This document shows, piece after piece, positions 1 to 11,402 of a DNA stretch of 64,000 nucleotides (position 1 is its first letter; each line of letters begins with the position of its first letter). The position numbers and the translations under genes are program-made. Below the pieces are notes generated by a model, which worked only from the letters and a program-made list of their open reading frames with translations, was not told the origin of the DNA and searched no databases. Source of the DNA: Oxalobacter sp. (GTDB taxonomy: Bacteria; Pseudomonadota; Gammaproteobacteria; Burkholderiales; Burkholderiaceae_D); assembly GCA_018384065.1 (NCBI GenBank), contig JAHAYL010000040.1, positions 1 through 64,000 on the forward strand, in the 5' to 3' direction.

Positions 1-110
1 GGATGGCGGAATACAATGAAATCCGCCCACATGAATCGCTTGGGAACCTGCCTCCACGGGCATTTTTGATGAAAAACAGCGGGAAAGTCTCTAATTTAAG
101 TTGTGCCTAA
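1..110 (+). CDS. IS3-family transposase OrfB, C-terminal fragment
   Basis: Conserved integrase-core C-terminal peptide YNEIRPHESLGNLPP followed by stop. Confidence 0.8.
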   Translation, partial: MAEYNEIRPHESLGNLPPRAFLMKNSGKVSNLSCA

Positions 111-126
111 AATGGGGAGGTTTACA
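1..126 (+). mobile_element. Right end of an IS3-family insertion sequence (cut by window start)
   Basis: Reading frame ending at TAA 108-110 gives ...WMAEYNEIRPHESLGNLPPRAFLMKNSGKVSNLSCA*, the conserved C-terminus of IS3-type OrfB transposases (YNxxRPHxSLGxxxP). Element end estimated at ...TTTACA (~126) from the usual IS3 5'-TG...CA-3' ends; exact boundary inferred. Confidence 0.8.
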
Positions 127-896: not shown

Positions 897-1256
897 TCCC
901 TTTACTCCATTCAGATAAGATACCTGCAACTTGAAGTTGCCCCTCCAATGTCTTTTAATACTCATTATCGGACGTAAAAAAATCAGATAATTCATTGATT
1001 TATAAAGTAAAAAATATTTACACCCTAGATAACTTCCAGAAACATAATTTTTGATGCTGTAACGTTCTGTCAACAACATTTCTCTATCAATCTATTTACA
1101 TTTAGAATTTTTTGATATACTCATGAGAGTCTATTAATGAGTATTAACAGACATTTTCGTCTGTTGTAAGCACACAAAAATACCCTCAAATAAAATGCCA
1201 GAACATACTGTTTCAGATTATTCCGGTAACGTTCTGGCATCTTGGGAGAGGTATTT

Positions 1257-2234
1257 ATGAATCATTCAGGTAATTATCAGAACGCCCGTATGTTTTTACG
1301 ATTTCTGTCAGAATCGGATCTCAAGCCCCGCTCACGCCGGACGTTCCTGGCGGGAGTCCGGTCTTTCGCCTCATGGTGCATGACGCAGGAAGTGAGTGTC
1401 CCCGACACGACGCATCTGAACCATTGGAAGACTTTCCTGCTGCTGCATTACGAGACCGCCACCGCGAGGACGTATCTGGCGGTGGTGAAGCTGTTTTTCC
1501 GCTGGATTGCGAGGAAAGGCTGGGGATCCGATATCGGGGCAACGGTGAAGGGTATCAAGTCCGATAAAACCTTCCGGAAAGACTGTCTGTCTGCAAAGCA
1601 GATACGTTCGGTACTGGCGTATCTTAAGAAGAAGATTCCTGAGTCGGTACTGACTGATGCCATCAGCAGAAAACACATGCCCTCCCCCAAAGAACGGGCT
1701 TCCCTCAGGAATTACGTGATTGTGCTGCTGCTGGTTTCCTGCGGTCTGCGGGTCTCAGAGGTTTCGCTGCTGGACTGCGGTGACCTGGACAAGGTGGACG
1801 GCAGACCGGTCATCTGGGTGCATGGCAAGGGACGGGATGGTAAATCAGACTTCGTCCGTATCTCAACAGAACTGGAAAAACTGCTTTTCCAGTATCTGAA
1901 GGCACGGCAGACGGTTTCACAGGATAGTCCAGTGTTCATTTCATATGCACCGAACAGTATTGGACAGCGGTTGACGGCCCGCAGCATCAGCCGCTTTGTG
2001 AAACAGGCATTGGTTGCTGTCGGACTGGATTCCCCGCGCTTGACGGCCCATTCATTACGCCATACAGCGGTGACACTGGCACTCAAAGGCGGAGCTTCAT
2101 TGCAGGAAGTCCAGCAGTTTGCACGGCACCGGCTCATCGAGACAACGATGCGTTATGCCCACAATCTTGAAATCCTTGAGAATCCCTGTTCACATCTGGT
2201 GACCGGCCAGTTGGGCAAAACTTTATTGAAGTAG
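1257..2234 (+). CDS. Tyrosine recombinase / site-specific integrase (XerC/D-like, stand-alone)
   Basis: C-terminal catalytic motifs: GLRVSEVSLL (Arg I), AHSLRHT (HxxR), FARHRLIETTMRYAH (His...Tyr); N-terminal SAM-like core-binding domain. Confidence 0.9.
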   Translation: MNHSGNYQNARMFLRFLSESDLKPRSRRTFLAGVRSFASWCMTQEVSVPDTTHLNHWKTFLLLHYETATARTYLAVVKLFFRWIARKGWGSDIGATVKGIKSDKTFRKDCLSAKQIRSVLAYLKKKIPESVLTDAISRKHMPSPKERASLRNYVIVLLLVSCGLRVSEVSLLDCGDLDKVDGRPVIWVHGKGRDGKSDFVRISTELEKLLFQYLKARQTVSQDSPVFISYAPNSIGQRLTARSISRFVKQALVAVGLDSPRLTAHSLRHTAVTLALKGGASLQEVQQFARHRLIETTMRYAHNLEILENPCSHLVTGQLGKTLLK

Positions 2235-2502
2235 CACCATCTATACTTATAAATGGTCGATTGAGATAAATGGCTTGAGGTTTACCGGAGCGGGAACCGC
2301 TGCTGGCTGCTGTCCCCGATAATCTGGCTATGGCGGGAAAACGGCAAGGAATCAACAGGCTTAAGGACTGTTCAGCAGTCTTGAAACAACCGATGCAGCG
2401 GGCATGACAGCCCTGAGCTGGAATAACTGATATCCTGTCTGTATCTTCTGTTGTTTGCTATACTTCATCCGTTTGTATTGCCTCTCATTCCGGCTTGCCA
2501 TC

Positions 2503-3705
2503 ATGTTTAAAAACGCCAAGGTAAAGCGTTACTCGATAATCGCCATCTGCGCACTGGTTATGATTGCCATCATCTGGGCAATCTATTGGGCAATGACAAG
2601 GAACAAGGGCGCATATCCCCGTGGTGGCGCAGTCGCCGTGAAAGTGGCAACCGTCACACAGGCTGATGCGCCTCTGGAAATCACTGCGTTGGGAACGGTC
2701 AATTCAACCTATTCCGTGACGGTCCACAGCCGGGTTGACGGACAGCTGATGCGACTCCATTTCACAGAAGGTCAGTTTGTCCGTCAGGGACAGCTGCTTG
2801 CTGAACTGGATGACCGCCCTTTCAAGGCGCAGCTGCTCCAGGCTGAAGGTCAGCTGATACGCGACAAGGCCCTGTTGGAGAATGCCCGCCTTGACCTGCA
2901 ACGCTACCGTCAGCTTCTCAGCCAGAACTCCATCGCACGCCAGCAGGTTGACACCCAGGCGGCATTGGTCAGGCAGTATGAGGGCTCTGTCAAAATTGAC
3001 CAGGGAGCGGTTGACAATGCCCGCCTGCAGATTACCTACAGCCGCATCACTGCACCGGTATCAGGACGCGTAGGCCTGAGGAAAGTCGATCTGGGCAACA
3101 TCGTCCACGCTTCGGATGCGGAGGGCATCGTCACCATCACCCAGGAGCAGCCGATCAATGTGGTTTTCTCGATTCCAGAAGTGGACCTTACGAAAGTGCT
3201 TGAAGCCTATTCGGCAGACAACCGGCTGGCGGTCGAGGCATGGGACAGGGATGACAAGAACCTGCTCTCGCATGGTGTGATCCTCGCGCTCGACAACCAG
3301 TTGAACACCGAAACCGGAACCATCGGCATCAAGGCAAAATTCGAAAACACCGACCGGAAGCTGTACCCGAACCAGTTTGTCAACGTCCATATGCATCTCG
3401 GCGCTGTCCAGAATGCGGTGCTGGTCCCGACGGTTGCTGTCCAACTGGGCAAGCAGGGACATACTGTCTATAAGGTCAACAGCGACAATAAAGTCAGTCT
3501 GGTGAAAGTGAAGATTGGCGCGGTCTCCGGTGAGAACACCATCATCGAATCCGGGCTCGAAGTCGGGGATACTGTCGTCACCGATGGTGTTGACAAACTC
3601 CGTGACGGCTCACAGGTCAAGGTTGTCGAGCAGATGGAACAGCCGGAACCCCATTCAGGCAAACCTGATGAACAGACCGTTGGAAAAGCAAAACCAGCCC
3701 CTTGA
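2503..3705 (+). CDS. mdtA: RND efflux periplasmic adaptor subunit (MdtA-like)
   Basis: N-terminal TM anchor, lipoyl/HlyD-type hairpin ([44 protein letters not shown]); first gene of adaptor + 2 RND pumps + OMF. Confidence 0.88.
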
Positions 3706-6700
3706 CGGAAACAGGGACGGGGGGCTGAACCCTTCCCGCCCATTCATTCTCCGTCCAGTCGCCACCATCCTGCTGATGGTGGCCCTCTTCCTTTCCGGGC
3801 TGGTCTCATGGCGGATGCTGCCAGTCTCTTCGTTACCGGAAGTCGATTATCCCACCATCCAGGTCGTGACCTATTATCCGGGAGCCAGCCCTGAAGTCGT
3901 GACATCCACCATCACCGCCCCATTGGAAAGGCAACTGGGACAGATGCCAGGGCTTTCGCAGATGTCCTCTTCAAGCTCTGAAGGGGTTTCGGTCATTACC
4001 CTGCAGTTTTCACTGTCCCTGACGCTGGATGTCGCTGAGCAGGAAGTCCAGGCTGCCATCAATGCAGCGAACATGCTGCTGCCGCAGGACCTGCCGAATC
4101 CACCTATCTATAATAAGGTGAATCCTGCCGATACGCCTATCCTGACAATCGCGGTGACTTCACCGACGATGACCATCACGGAACTGGAAGACCTCGCAGA
4201 CACCCGTATCGCGCAGAAACTGTCGCAGGTTCCCGGTGTCGGTCTGGTTTCCATCAGCGGCGGGCAACGCCCGGCTGTCCGTGTTCATGCCAATTCAAAG
4301 GCCCTTGCCGCACGGAACATCACACTGGAAAAAGTCCGTTCCGCCATCAAGACCGCCAACGTCAATCAGGCAAAGGGCAGTTTTGACGGTCAACTGCAGT
4401 CTTCAACCATTGACGGCAACGACCAGCTGAAATCCGCCAAGGAATATGAAGAGGTCATCATCACTTACCAAGGCGGTGCTCCCATCCGCCTGAAAGATAT
4501 CGCATCGGTCTTTGATGGGGCTGAGAACGAGAACCTCGCAGCATGGTCTGGCAACAAGCCCGCCGTCATCCTGACAGTCCAGCGGCAGCCAGGTGCCAAT
4601 GTGATTGAAGTCGCTGACAGAATCAAGCAGACCCTGCCTGTCCTGAAAAGCGCCCTTCCTGCAGCGGTCGATGTGGAAGTCCTTTCAGACAGGACAGTCT
4701 CCATCCGTTCCTCTGTCGGTGATGTGGAACATGAGCTGGTCATGTCCGTCGCTTTGGTGGTGTTGGTGGTCTTCCTCTTCCTACGGAACCTGACCGCCAC
4801 CATCATCCCCGCCATCGCAGTCCCCCTTTCGCTTATCGGCACATTCGGTGTCATGTACCTGTCCGGCTTCTCGTTGAACAACCTGTCCCTGATGGCGCTG
4901 ACCATCGCTACCGGTTTTGTGGTTGATGATGCGATTGTGATGATTGAGAACATCTCCCGCTTCATCGAGGCGGGCGATTCACCGATGGAAGCAGCATTGA
5001 AGGGGTCCAAGCAGATCGGTTTCACCATCATCTCCCTGACAGTTTCCCTGATTGCCGTCCTGATTCCCCTGCTGTTCATGGGCGATGTCATCGGCAGGCT
5101 CTTCCGGGAATTTGCGGTCACCCTGGCTGTCTCCATCCTGATTTCAGCTGTCATCTCCCTGACACTGACACCGATGATGAGCGCCCGCCTGCTGAAATCC
5201 AGCAGCCAGGAAAAAAAACAGGAATCCAGGTTTTTCCAGAAGGTGAACAGTTTTTGGGAAAAAACCATCGAGAAGTATGCAGTCGGGCTGAAATGGGTGC
5301 TGTCCCATCAGCGGTTGACACTGCTGACAACTGTCGGGACGGTTGTCTTCACCGCATTGCTCTATCTGCTTATCCCAAAGGGCTTTTTCCCGCTGCAGGA
5401 CTCCGGTGTCATCCAAGTGGTTTCTGAAATCCGGCAGTCCACGTCATTCAAGTCGATGGCTGCCCAGCAGGAAAAACTGATCAATAGGGTGCTTGAAGAC
5501 CCTGATGTCGAGAACCTCTCTTCTTTCATCGGGGTTGACGGTACAAACCCTGCCCTGAACAACGGACATATGCAGATCAACCTGAAACCCAAAGGCGACC
5601 GTGATGATATCCATACCATCATGAACCGACTTCAGGAACGTGCCAGTGACATCCCCGGCATGACGCTGTATATGCAGCCTGTCCAAGACATCAGCATCGA
5701 CAGCCGCACCAGCTATGCGCAATACCAGTTCACGCTCCAAGCCACCAGCCAGCAGCAGCTTTCTGAATGGACAACCAGGCTGGTTGACCGTCTGAAAGCA
5801 GTCCCGGAACTGACTGATGTGACTTCCGACCTGCTGGAAAATGGACTGAAGGCCTATGTCAACATCAACCGCGACACCGCCTCACGGCTGGGCGTCTCTG
5901 TCCAGGACATCGACGATGCCCTCTATGATGCATTTGGCCAGCGGCTTGTCTCGACCATCTACACGCAGACCAACCAGTACCGTGTCGTCCTGCAGGTCGC
6001 GCCTGAAGAACGCCAGAATCCTCTGTCCATCCGGAACATCTATGTCGCTTCCGCCAACGGTGGCATGGTACCGCTCGATGCCATCGCGTCCATCGAAGAG
6101 AAACCTGCAACCCTGGTCATCAACCATATGGGACAGTTCCCGACGGCAACAGTTTCCTTCAACCTGGCGGACGGTGTCTCATTGTCACAGGCGGTTGACA
6201 TCATCCATGATGTTGAAGAAGAGATGGACATGCCCCAGAGCATCCAGACCGAATTCCAAGGGGCTGCGATGGCGTTCAAGTCATCGCTGTCCTCCACCCT
6301 CTGGCTGATTCTTGCCGCCTTGGTCGTGATGTACATCGTACTGGGCATCCTCTATGAAAGCTATATCCATCCTGTCACCATCCTTTCCACGCTGCCTTCC
6401 GCCGGCATCGGGGCACTGCTGGCATTGATGGTCACCGGCAAAGACCTGACTGTCATCGCCATCATCGGCATCATCCTGCTGATTGGCATCGTGAAGAAGA
6501 ACGCCATCATGATGATTGACTTTGCCCTGGCGGCTGAACGTGACGAAGGTCTGCCGCCAGAAGAAGCCATCTATCAGGCATGCCTGCTACGTTTCCGTCC
6601 CATCATGATGACAACCATGGCGGCACTGCTGGGCGCTGTCCCGCTGATGCTGGCAACCGGCATCGGTTCAGAACTCCGCAATCCGCTCGGCATCACCATG

Positions 6701-6832
6701 GTAGGCGGCCTGCTGCTCAGCCAAGTCCTGACCCTGTTCACAACCCCCGTCATCTATCTTTATTTCGACAGGCTTTCCAGACGGTTCAGGAAAGAAACGC
6801 CGCCTGATACCGAAAAGGCGCATGCCAACTGA
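3668..6832 (+). CDS. mdtB: RND multidrug efflux permease (MdtB-like)
   Basis: [22 protein letters not shown]..., [16 protein letters not shown] and other HAE1-RND motifs; ATG 3668 overlaps the end of mdtA. Confidence 0.9.
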
Positions 6833-6844
6833 TGGGGAACCGGC

Positions 6845-9800
6845 ATGAACTTTTCTGAGACCTTCATACGCAGACCTGTCGCAACGGTCCTTGTGACCCT
6901 GGCAATCCTGCTGTCCGGCATTGTCGCTTTCCGGTTCCTGCCGGTCGCCCCCCTGCCCCAGGTTGATTTCCCGACCATCCGTGTCCGCGCCCAACTACCA
7001 GGTGCCAGCCCGGAAACCATGGCTGCAACCGTCGCCACACCACTCGAACGCACTCTGGGCAGGATTGCCGGCATCAGCGAAATCACCTCCACCAGCACAT
7101 TGGGACAGACTGAAATCACCCTGCAGTTCGACCTGTCACGCGACATCAACGGTGCCGCACGGGATGTCCAGTCAGCCATCAACGCTGCCCGTGCGTTGCT
7201 GCCAACCATGCCCCGCAACCCGACTTACCGCAAATTGAACCCGGCAGATGCCCCGATCATGCTGCTGTCGCTGACATCAGACAGCCTGCCCTTCAGCCAG
7301 ATGTACGATGCGGCAGATACCATCATCGCCCAGAAGCTGATGCAGGTTGAGGGGGTCGGAGATGTGTTTGTCGGCGGGGGATCCCAGCCGGCTGTCCGTA
7401 TCGACCTGAACCCCCAGCAGCTTGCCCGCTACGGCATCAACCTCGAGCAGGCACGCTCAGTCATCTCAAACATGAACGTCGCCCGTCCGAAAGGCTCTGT
7501 CGGGAACGACCATACAAAATGGCAGATCGAAGCCAATGACCAGGTCAAGACCGCCCGGGATTACAAACCGATGATCATCCATCATACCAACGGCGCAGTC
7601 ATCCGTTTGCAGGATGTTGCCGAAGTCACGGACGGTGTCCAGAACATCTACAACAAAGGCATCATAAACGGCAAGCAGAGCATCGTCCTGATCATCTTCC
7701 GGGAACCGGGTGCCAACATCATCGAAACCGTTGACCGCATCTACCATGTCCTACCCAAACTGACAGCGTCTGTCCCCGGTGATGTCGACCTGGGTGTTGT
7801 CATGGACCGCACCCCAACCATCCGTGCCTCCCTGGCGGATGTTGAATTCACGCTGATGGTCTCAGTCGGACTGGTCATTCTTGTTGTCTTCCTTTTCCTG
7901 CGCAATCTCCGCGCCACTTTCATTTCTGCCGTCACAGTCCCAGTATCCCTGATTGGTACATTCACCGTCATGTACCTGGCAGGTTTTTCCCTGAACAACC
8001 TGTCATTGATGGCGATGACCATCGCCACCGGCTTTGTGGTGGACGATACCATCGTTGTGCTTGAGAACATCATGCGCTATATCGAGGATGGCATGAAACC
8101 TATCGATGCCGCCATGAAAGGTGCCAAGGAAGTCGGCTTCACTGTTATCTCCATCAGCCTATCCCTGATTGCCGTCTTCATCCCGATCCTGCTGATGGGC
8201 GGCATCATCGGCAGGCTGTTCCGCGAATTCGCCGTCACACTTTCCATCACCATCCTGGTCTCGCTGTTCATCTCCCTGACCACCACCCCGATGCTCTGTG
8301 CCCTTCTGCTGAAACAGAGAAAACAGCAACCCCAAGGAACCGTCGGTAGGATTTTCGGTAGGAGTGAACATTTCTTCGCATGGCTGCAGAGCGGTTATGA
8401 AAAGACCCTAAGCTGGGCAATCAACCACCGGCGGCTGACACTGATGATCCTGCTGGCGACCATCGCCTTCAACATCTTCCTGTACATCATCGTCCCCAAA
8501 GGCTTCTTCCCACAACAGGACACCGGCAGGATGTTCGGTGCTATCCGGGCAGACCAGAGCATCTCATCCAAAGCCATGGAAAAGAAGATGAAAAATTTTG
8601 TCGAAAAAATCCAGCAGGACCCTGCGGTTGACAAAGTCGCCGGCTACACCAGCAATGCGCAGACCAATTCAGCACACATGTTCCTGAGCCTGAAACCCAA
8701 GGCGGAACGGGATGCCAGTTCCGACCAGGTCATGGCACGCCTCCGTGCAAAACTCTCATCTGAACCCGGCGCAACGATGTTCCTGCAGTCTGTCCAGGAC
8801 ATCCGCATGGGCGGACGTCCCGCCAATGCCCAGTTCCAGTTCACCCTGATGAGCGACGACCTTGAAGAACTGCGTGAATGGACGCCCAAAGCCATGCAGG
8901 CAATGGCGAAACTGCCGATGATTGCCGACCTGAACACCGACCAGGAACTGCATGGCAGGCAGACCATGCTCACCTTCAACCGTGACCAGATGGCACGGTT
9001 CGGCATCACCCAGAAAGATGTCGACAACGCCCTGTACAACGCTTTCGGCCAACGGCAGATATCCAACATCTACAACGACCTGAACCAGTACAAGGTTGTC
9101 CTGGAAATCGGTCTGCAGCATCTGGAAAACCCTGAATCCCTGAATGACATCTATATCCAGACCCGTGACGGTCCGACACCACTTTCATCCATCGCCACCT
9201 GGGAACCGGTGAATACCTCACTGACCGTCAACCATCAGAGCCAGTTTGCCGCTTCGACCTTGTCATTCAACCTGCTGCCTGGGCACTCCCTCTCAGAAGC
9301 TACCCATGCCATCGAGCAGACACTGTCTGATATCGGTATGCCGAAATCCGTTATCGGCAGTTTCCAAGGCACCGCCAAAACCTTCAAGGAATCGCTCTCC
9401 AACCAACCGCTGCTCATTGCCCTCGCACTGGTGGCGGTCTATATCGTGCTGGGTATGCTGTATGAAAGCTTCATCCATCCCATCACCATCATCTCGACAT
9501 TGCCATCCGCCGGGGTCGGGGCACTGCTGGCACTGCTGCTTGCCCGGACAGAATTCTCCATCATCGCCTTGATCGGGGTGCTCCTGCTGATTGGCATCGT
9601 CAAGAAAAACGCCATCATGATGATTGACTTCGCCATCGTTGCAGAGCGTGAAGACGGACTGACACCGGAAAAAGCCATCTATCAGGCTTGCTCGCTCCGT
9701 TTCCGTCCCATTATGATGACAACAGCGGCAGCTCTGTTCGGTGCCCTGCCGCTTGCTTTGGGACACGGCGATGGCGCTGAACTCCGTATTCCGCTGGGCA

Positions 9801-9937
9801 TCTCAATCGTGGGCGGCCTGATCCTCAGCCAGCTGCTGACGCTGTACACCACCCCGATTGTCTATCTGTATATGAACCGCTTCCAGAAGAAGAAACTGAA
9901 AAAGGCAGAATCCGATGAAGCTGAAAACAATGCTTGA
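6845..9937 (+). CDS. mdtC: RND multidrug efflux permease (MdtC-like)
   Basis: [60 protein letters not shown]; second RND pump in tandem. Confidence 0.9.
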
Positions 9938-11402
9938 TAAAGCCATGCCATCCATCCCATCGCACCTCGTGCAGAAAACCGCTTTGGCGCTCGTCTGTTC
10001 CACCGCTTTCCTGACAGGCTGTGCAGTCGGTCCTGACTATGTCCGCCCTGAAGTGGATGTCCCTGCCGCCTATAAGGAAGATGCGCTCTGGAAACTGGCA
10101 AAACCTGCTGATGAAATGCCCAAAGGTGAATGGTGGAAAGTCTTTAAGGATCCCGTCCTCAATCAGCTGATGGACCAGCTGAACCGGCAGAACCTGACCA
10201 TCATCCAAGCAGAAGCCCAATACCGTCAGGCAGCCGCCTACCTGCGGCAGGCAGAATCCGGGCTTTTCCCGACACTCGATGTTGGTGCTTCCCGCATCCG
10301 GGGCATCCATAACAGCAACAGCCGTGCCATCACCAACCAGCATGAGGTCTCAGGCACCATCAGCTGGGAAATCGATATCTGGGGTGAAATCAGACGTAGC
10401 ATCGAAGCCGGTGAAACCGGTGCCGCCGCCAGCCTTGCCAACGTGGCGGCAACCCGCCTTTCCGCCCAGGCACAGCTTGCCAAAGCCTATCTGGAACTGC
10501 GGGTCACTGATTGCCAGATTGCCCGCCTGAAAGAAAGCGAGAAACTACTCGAAGAATCTCTGCGGCTCACCCGCAACCAATACAACGTCGGCATCATTTC
10601 CGATGCCGATGTCGCCCAGGCTGAAAGCCTCTGGAAAAACGCCCAAGCTGCTACACTCGATGCCGAACTCGCCCGTGCCCAGCTCGAACATGCGATTGCC
10701 GTCAGCATCGGGCAGACACCCGCCACTTTTGCGCTTGAATCCGTTGCCGATGCCCCAGACCTGCCAACCATCCCAGCGGGCATTCCTTCGCTGATGCTCC
10801 AACGCAGACCCGATATCGCCGTCGCAGAACGGCGTGTCGCCCAGGCAAACGCTGAAATTGGTGTTGCCAAAGCCGCCTTCTTCCCTGCCCTCACCCTCTC
10901 CGCAGACGGTGGCTGGCGGCATACCTCATTCAACGACCTGTTCACCGTGCCCAACCGCATCTGGTCCATCGGCCCTTCAATCGCCCTGAACATCTTTGAT
11001 GCTGGCCTGAGACGGGCACGGAGCGATGAAGCCATCGCCGCCTATGATGAAAAAGTCGCCGCTTACCGCCAACAGGTACTGACCGCCTTCCAGGAAGTCG
11101 AAGACAGCCTTGCCGCACAGAACTACCTGCACCACGAAGCCGACCACCAGATGGCAGCTGTCAATGCCGCCAAACGTGCCGAACGCATCATGATGAACCG
11201 CTACCGGGCAGGCACCGCCAGCTATATTGAAGTCTTGACCGCCCAGAACACCCGCATCAATGCCGAGAACACCTGGTGGAGCATCCGCAAACGCCAGTTC
11301 ACCAGTGCGGCGTCACTTATCGCAGCACTTGGCGGAGGGTGGGAACAAACTCAGCCAACGCCAGCAACACCTGATGGGAAAGTTCCTTCGACTAATCCAT
11401 AG
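9915..11402 (+). CDS. NodT/OprM-family outer membrane efflux lipoprotein
   Basis: Lipobox-like [23 protein letters not shown]; repeated OEP domain; overlaps mdtC 3' end. Confidence 0.92.

Follow-up and report, generated by a model that had tools for sequence, protein, structure and literature searches.

A probable multi-locus promoter-inversion switch in Oxalobacter, with dif-like sites and a Xer-like recombinase family

Introduction

The inversion of promoters by tyrosine recombinases at autotransporter genes is established from the IpuA/ipuS system of uropathogenic Escherichia coli, in which an invertible intergenic promoter of 260 bp lies at UpaE (PMC6083910). Master invertases of both the tyrosine and the serine type, Tsr19 and Mpi, are established in Bacteroides (PMC4747536). 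In Bacteroides fragilis, Tsr19 (BF2766) is a single tyrosine recombinase that inverts one nearby and one distant promoter of surface structures, and Mpi acts on 13 dispersed regions, seven of which are surface polysaccharide promoters (PMC4747536).

The locus studied here lies in a 64,000-nucleotide stretch of Oxalobacter DNA, to which we refer as the window, and which lies on contig C4 of a 64-contig genome (G000). Oxalobacter is a gut oxalate degrader studied for kidney-stone risk. The canonical dif site is laid out as 11-6-11, and XerC/XerD and XerA with dif are the nearest comparison for our locus in terms of closest sequence families, PDB chains and site layout; however, the window recombinase falls far below the equivalog cut-offs, and many inverted site pairs at surface genes take the place of one dif. 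With Tsr19 and other tyrosine master invertases of B. fragilis the system shares segments bounded by inverted repeats, but it belongs to a different phylum, its sites are 28 bp long and dif-like, their central hexamer usually varying from locus to locus, and its targets are autotransporters, trimeric adhesins and porins. As in IpuA/ipuS, a tyrosine recombinase gene stands beside a probably phase-variable autotransporter, with a probable invertible promoter in the intergenic region, whereas the ipuS repeats measure 7 bp and have half-sites similar to fimS (PMC6083910), and the window protein reaches only 25-28 bits on DNA invertase models. Mpi is alike in being a master invertase of dispersed surface promoters, yet it is a serine recombinase of unrelated mechanism, and its citation as a tyrosine recombinase in the initial annotation of this DNA was mistaken (PMC4747536).

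What is added here is an Oxalobacter system in which the recombinases form a distinct Xer-like family and the sites are dif-like, with cores matched within pairs. We found no link between Oxalobacter and invertible DNA in the open-access literature searched, which is not proof of novelty, and only three papers there name both Oxalobacter and phase variation, each with one or two mentions. If our reading is true, Oxalobacter populations would be mixed in surface type, a matter of relevance to colonisation and to phage or immune exposure.

Results and discussion

Anatomy of the window locus

The intergenic region between the adhesin and recombinase genes (Table 1) holds a 21-bp inverted repeat (947-967 / 1135-1155), complementary at 20 of 21 positions with 167 bp between its arms, and its score of 18 exceeds the maximum of 15 reached in 1000 dinucleotide shuffles. 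When extended, the arms become two 28-bp quasi-palindromic sites of Xer/dif-like type, with an identical central hexamer (TACTCA) inverted relative to each other. The layout is that of an inverton: short inverted repeats bounding an intergenic segment, within about 100-400 bp, upstream of a gene. The initial annotation had proposed an invertible promoter beside a tyrosine recombinase, and in this it was very probably right, given that the architecture recurs at five loci of this genome and in six related species, with flipped forms in relatives. Its boundaries were wrong: it had 1073-1194 inverting between four short motifs, whereas the sites are at 948-975 and 1127-1154.

Table 1. Positions in the window of the features discussed
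Feature	Position	Strand	Remarks
Insertion sequence end, IS3-like by inspection	1-126	+	interrupts the adhesin gene
ESPR adhesin gene, 5' part, ~257 codons	127-896	-	ESPR domain 35.3 bits
Recombination site, adhesin side	948-975	+	atgtcttttaa-TACTCA-ttatcggacgt, 28 bp, 11-6-11
Central hexamers of the two sites	959-964 / 1138-1143		
Predicted invertible segment	962-1141		hexamer centre to centre, ~179 bp; from site geometry
Motif pair 1 (CCAGAAACAT / GTAACGTTCTGTCA)	1036-1072		within the predicted invertible segment; probably a promoter/operator element
Sigma-70-like promoter toward the adhesin, present orientation	1044-1073	-	TTGACA-18-AATTAT; consensus match only
Promoter-like site toward the recombinase, present orientation	1095-1121	+	TTTACA-15-TATACT, extended -10, short spacer; consensus match only
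Recombination site, recombinase side	1127-1154	-	atgtctgttaa-TACTCA-ttaatagactc (minus-strand reading)
Motif pair 2, with exact 10-bp inverted repeat	1195-1240		beyond the segment, within the leader of the recombinase gene; likely operator
Tyrosine recombinase gene, 325 aa, Xer-like	1257-2234	+	R165, K191, H265, R268, H291, Y300

The assembly of this genome contains the window segment in a single orientation. The suggested comparison with relatives could not supply the flipped form of this particular region, since the segment lacks a close homologue in the 12 relatives and no inverted form of it was found. An alignment of the C4 segment against the others, meant to show which way round it lies, matched only a 23-bp region around the motif to those of C29 and C38, in opposite orientation, and this is not significant alone. 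Beside the recombinase, an ordinary RND efflux operon occupies positions 2455-11402 (membrane fusion protein, two pumps and outer-membrane factor).

The recombinase

The window protein carries a Phage_integrase domain (Pfam, 85.3 bits), and the R-K-H-R-H-Y positions that define a tyrosine recombinase are invariant in eight homologues. Its closest NCBIfam families are XerA (112.9 bits), XerC (111.2) and XerD (85.9), against equivalog cut-offs of 220, 335.15 and 329.6, so that it is Xer-like without qualifying as any of the three; the closest PDB chains are likewise XerC-like 4a8e, XerD 1a0p and XerA 5hxy. Nor is it of the FimB/FimE type, scoring 25.2 and 28.2 bits on the tyrosine-type DNA invertase models NF007370 and NF007371 (cut-offs 221 and 222), and its membership of the Phage_integrase family sets it apart from serine recombinases such as Mpi. 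The same genome encodes intact paralogues on contigs C51 (66%) and C55 (54%) and remnants on C29 and C14. The family occurs in 6 of 13 sampled Oxalobacter species and was absent from 299 other sampled genomes of the order (E 1e-80). In G007 and G008 the homologue occupies the same chromosomal place behind rpoH, which denotes a stable position. There (L050 and L048, respectively) the gene immediately follows ftsX and rpoH, and most of its sites are a long way off.

Further site pairs in the same genome and across the genus

A degenerate pattern derived from the sites of the five loci described here, run over the whole genome, recovered those five pairs and a single isolated match elsewhere; the reversed control gave 0 forward matches and 3 reverse ones. 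All five pairs lie upstream of ESPR adhesin genes, and the arm consensus of the window sites is also present at the other four. Three of them (C4, C51 and C55) adjoin members of the one recombinase family; at C51 and C55 the intact paralogue is the divergent neighbour of an ESPR trimeric-autotransporter-type gene, with the inverted site pair between the two. At C29 and C38 the pair likewise stands in front of an ESPR adhesin gene, but no recombinase adjoins it, and a recombinase presumably acts there in trans. Downstream of the pairs, the C55, C29 and C38 genes encode both ESPR and anchor, and C51 encodes them in two overlapping frames; the window gene has the ESPR and lacks the YadA stalk and anchor, because it is cut by the insertion sequence. 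The C29 and C38 segments and that of G005 C29 share one orientation, as do the switches of G004 and G005.

Signs of decay were also seen. Decayed modules, with recombinase remnants beside ESPR genes, lie on C29 (L016, about 7130-7440) and on C14 (L083, 20500-21900), and the former keeps one degenerate site. In one site of the pair at G005 C29 (L090), and in one at C38 (L017, 7030-7057), the core or its immediate surroundings carry a small deletion, and these two switches may be locked as a result.

Six relatives, G004, G005, G007, G008, G010 and G011, also have site pairs, spaced about 150-210 bp; G011 has about 12 of them. The genes downstream are mostly autotransporters, trimeric autotransporters and a porin; in G011 and G008 they include classical autotransporters, an ESPR/pertactin-type autotransporter and a porin. 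Among the 13 genomes, pairs occur in all six that have the recombinase and in one of the seven that do not, and the hypergeometric probability of a co-occurrence as good or better is 7/1716 = 0.004, ignoring phylogeny. The single exception, G010, has a site pair with no recombinase detected in an assembly that is 72% complete.

Cores are matched within pairs

The central 4 nt are identical and inverted in 23 of 24 curated pairs, whereas swapping partners gives a mean of 2.5 and a maximum of 10. In three of these pairs (G011 418, 474 and 526) one site had been found by its core match, which is circular for a test of cores, and we set them aside. Among the pairs located by arm score alone, the 4-nt core is identical and inverted in 20 of 21, with G011 1144 agreeing only in a second register. 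The arms are nearly as alike between loci (16.8/24) as within them (17.5/24). Arms that are alike across loci, combined with a core matched within each pair, would follow if the recombinase binds the arms and strand exchange needs a core match. In G011 most loci have different cores, but the addressing is not strict: three loci of G008 share GCGT, and C29 and C38 share GCTT.

We think it somewhat more probable than not that a genus-specific, Xer-derived master invertase family runs a regulon of up to about 12 surface-gene switches, with common arms and mostly locus-specific hexamers, such that each promoter could flip independently and without recombination between loci. The set of sites offers a natural test of how tyrosine recombinases avoid cross-reaction among many sites via core identity.

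Flipped forms in relatives

Both orientations of a segment could be recognised in relatives. Near position 418,700 of G011 two copies of one segment, oppositely oriented and identical over 195/195 positions, lie around a 100-N scaffold gap. The adhesin-side flank, TTAACGGAAGCAGACGCCTT, is common to the two copies, as is the outer half-site, whereas the inner half-site is CATACCGCTAA in one and ATGTCCGCTAA in the other. Near 1,144,000 of the same genome, both orientations are again found on the same flank (182/182 identical). Lastly, G007 and G008, which their flanking genes mark as sister species, have an orthologous porin switch in opposite orientations, with inner half-sites exchanged at the core: the left flank meets one end of the segment in G008 (acatccgttaaTGCGTAttaacggatgt) and the other end in G007 (acatccgttaaTGCGTAttaacggacat). 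The crossover falls within or beside the core in all three cases. The G011 evidence consists of assembly duplications around 100-N gaps and is indirect. All three cases come from assembled sequence, which leaves a misassembly conceivable; still, half-site swaps at the core, such as those of G011 and G007/G008, would not be expected from chance misassembly.

Proposed mechanism

Site anatomy, recurrence, the pairing rule, the flipped forms in relatives and the intact catalytic residues, all of them read from sequence, point to a multi-locus promoter-inversion switch at 28-bp sites, run by a Xer-like recombinase family, and we hold this to be very likely. The window locus would be one switch of this phase-variation system. 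The recombinase encoded at 1257-2234, or either of its two intact paralogues, would bind the arms of both sites, and strand exchange within the common TACTCA hexamer would invert some 179 bp containing the predicted promoter elements. Adjacency and co-occurrence suggest that the window recombinase itself performs the inversion, and half-site exchange in relatives suggests, by analogy, a crossover inside the core. In one orientation the promoter would read into the ESPR adhesin gene, and in the other toward the recombinase, so that the adhesin would be expressed in only part of the population. Motif pair 1 would travel with the segment and pair 2 would stay in the recombinase leader.

The predicted promoters may be the ones used, but scans of the segment yield no more matches than shuffles, or than expected for such AT-rich DNA, and both directions score alike, which does not separate the ON orientation. 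The -35 of the adhesin-facing site overlaps the motif copy at 1059-1072.

The repeated motifs as probable promoter or operator elements

The motifs that first drew attention to this region are real. All six sequences lie exactly where the initial annotation had placed them. The two copies of GTAACGTTCTGKCA agree at 13 of 14 positions, a direct 14-mer pair that surpasses all 60 dinucleotide shuffles of 897-1256 (maximum 12), and ATGCCAGAAC and GTTCTGGCAT, when checked by coordinates, form an exact inverted 10-mer. With sites at 948-975 and 1127-1154, pair 1 is placed inside the segment and pair 2 outside it. The GTAACRTTCTGT motif is better read as a promoter or operator element than as a recombination site, and the same annotation had in fact offered operators for a regulator as its alternative. 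Most likely, the CCAGAAC/GTAACRTTCTG motifs are promoter or operator elements common to the segment and the recombinase leader, and a single such element in both pairs is the most economical reading.

A narrower version, in which the motifs serve as operators at the adhesin and recombinase promoters, for a transcription factor or for the recombinase, has to our mind slightly the better of the argument; it does not conflict with inversion at the 28-bp sites, to which it would add coordinated control. The search for further copies that had been suggested bears on it: GTAACRTTCTGT has three exact matches in the 1.93-Mb genome (the C4 window, C29 and C38), each inside an invertible segment upstream of an adhesin gene, and eight in 13 genomes of the genus, six of them upstream of adhesin genes. 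The three are not all independent, since the C29 and C38 segments are homologous. In addition, pair 2 forms an inverted repeat in front of the recombinase gene, 17-62 bp from its start. Against operators stand the absence of the motif from the C51, C55 and G004 switches, and the possibility that it is a conserved promoter core inherited by duplicated segments. As a genome-wide operator the motif was rejected: CCAGAACRTTAC with one mismatch is no commoner than its reversed control, which argues against a large regulon. At one adhesin gene of G005 (L096, C11), the upstream region is homologous to the C29 segment and still has the GTAACATTCTGT motif, although a site pair can no longer be recognised there; this switch is possibly locked.

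Is the window switch a relic?

The adhesin gene is interrupted by an insertion sequence, and the window switch may consequently now control a broken gene. A 32-bp end of the element (95-126) is identical near the termini of contigs C1, C2, C3, C4 and C57. One can ask whether the C4 pair is a relic, in which sites and recombinase persist and the switch is irrelevant. In favour of this, only about 257 codons of the gene precede the truncation, the insertion sequence forms the end of the contig, and the genome has further decayed remnants of recombinases and sites. Yet the recombinase reading frame and its catalytic residues are intact, both sites are well conserved, and the recombinase may serve other loci. 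On balance we regard a relic as rather unlikely, though to be taken seriously, and the conservation of sites and enzyme suggests that the window locus may still invert.

Two improbable alternatives: inversion between the motifs, and a mobile origin

The proposal that recombination takes place at the four CCAGAAC/GTAACGTTCTG motifs, so that 1073-1194 inverts, has in its favour that they are exactly as described and flank an AT-rich stretch. However, the long matching copies of GTAACGTTCTGKCA are direct repeats, between which recombination deletes instead of inverting; spacing differs within the two pairs (13 versus 19 nt); the other switches of the family use 28-bp sites with no motif pairs at their borders; and where other loci have the motif, it is inside the segment. 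We consider this proposal very improbable. Just as improbable is a recombinase that belongs to a mobile element, with inverted repeats that are coincidental or element ends, for although it has the Phage_integrase domain, no element genes surround it in these loci, the G007/G008 homologue keeps its place next to rpoH, and the site pairs recur with a strict pairing rule and a spacing of about 200 bp.

Returning to the inversion system as we read it, two observations in relatives concern its reach. In G011, a site pair lies between sugar-nucleotide genes and an hldE-like PfkB/cytidylyltransferase gene (L146, C2:1261500-1268000, at 3192-3434 of that stretch), which suggests phase-variable lipopolysaccharide. 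In G008, near-identical invertible segments with the same core are found at two unlinked porin loci (L148 and L150), which makes recombination between loci conceivable.
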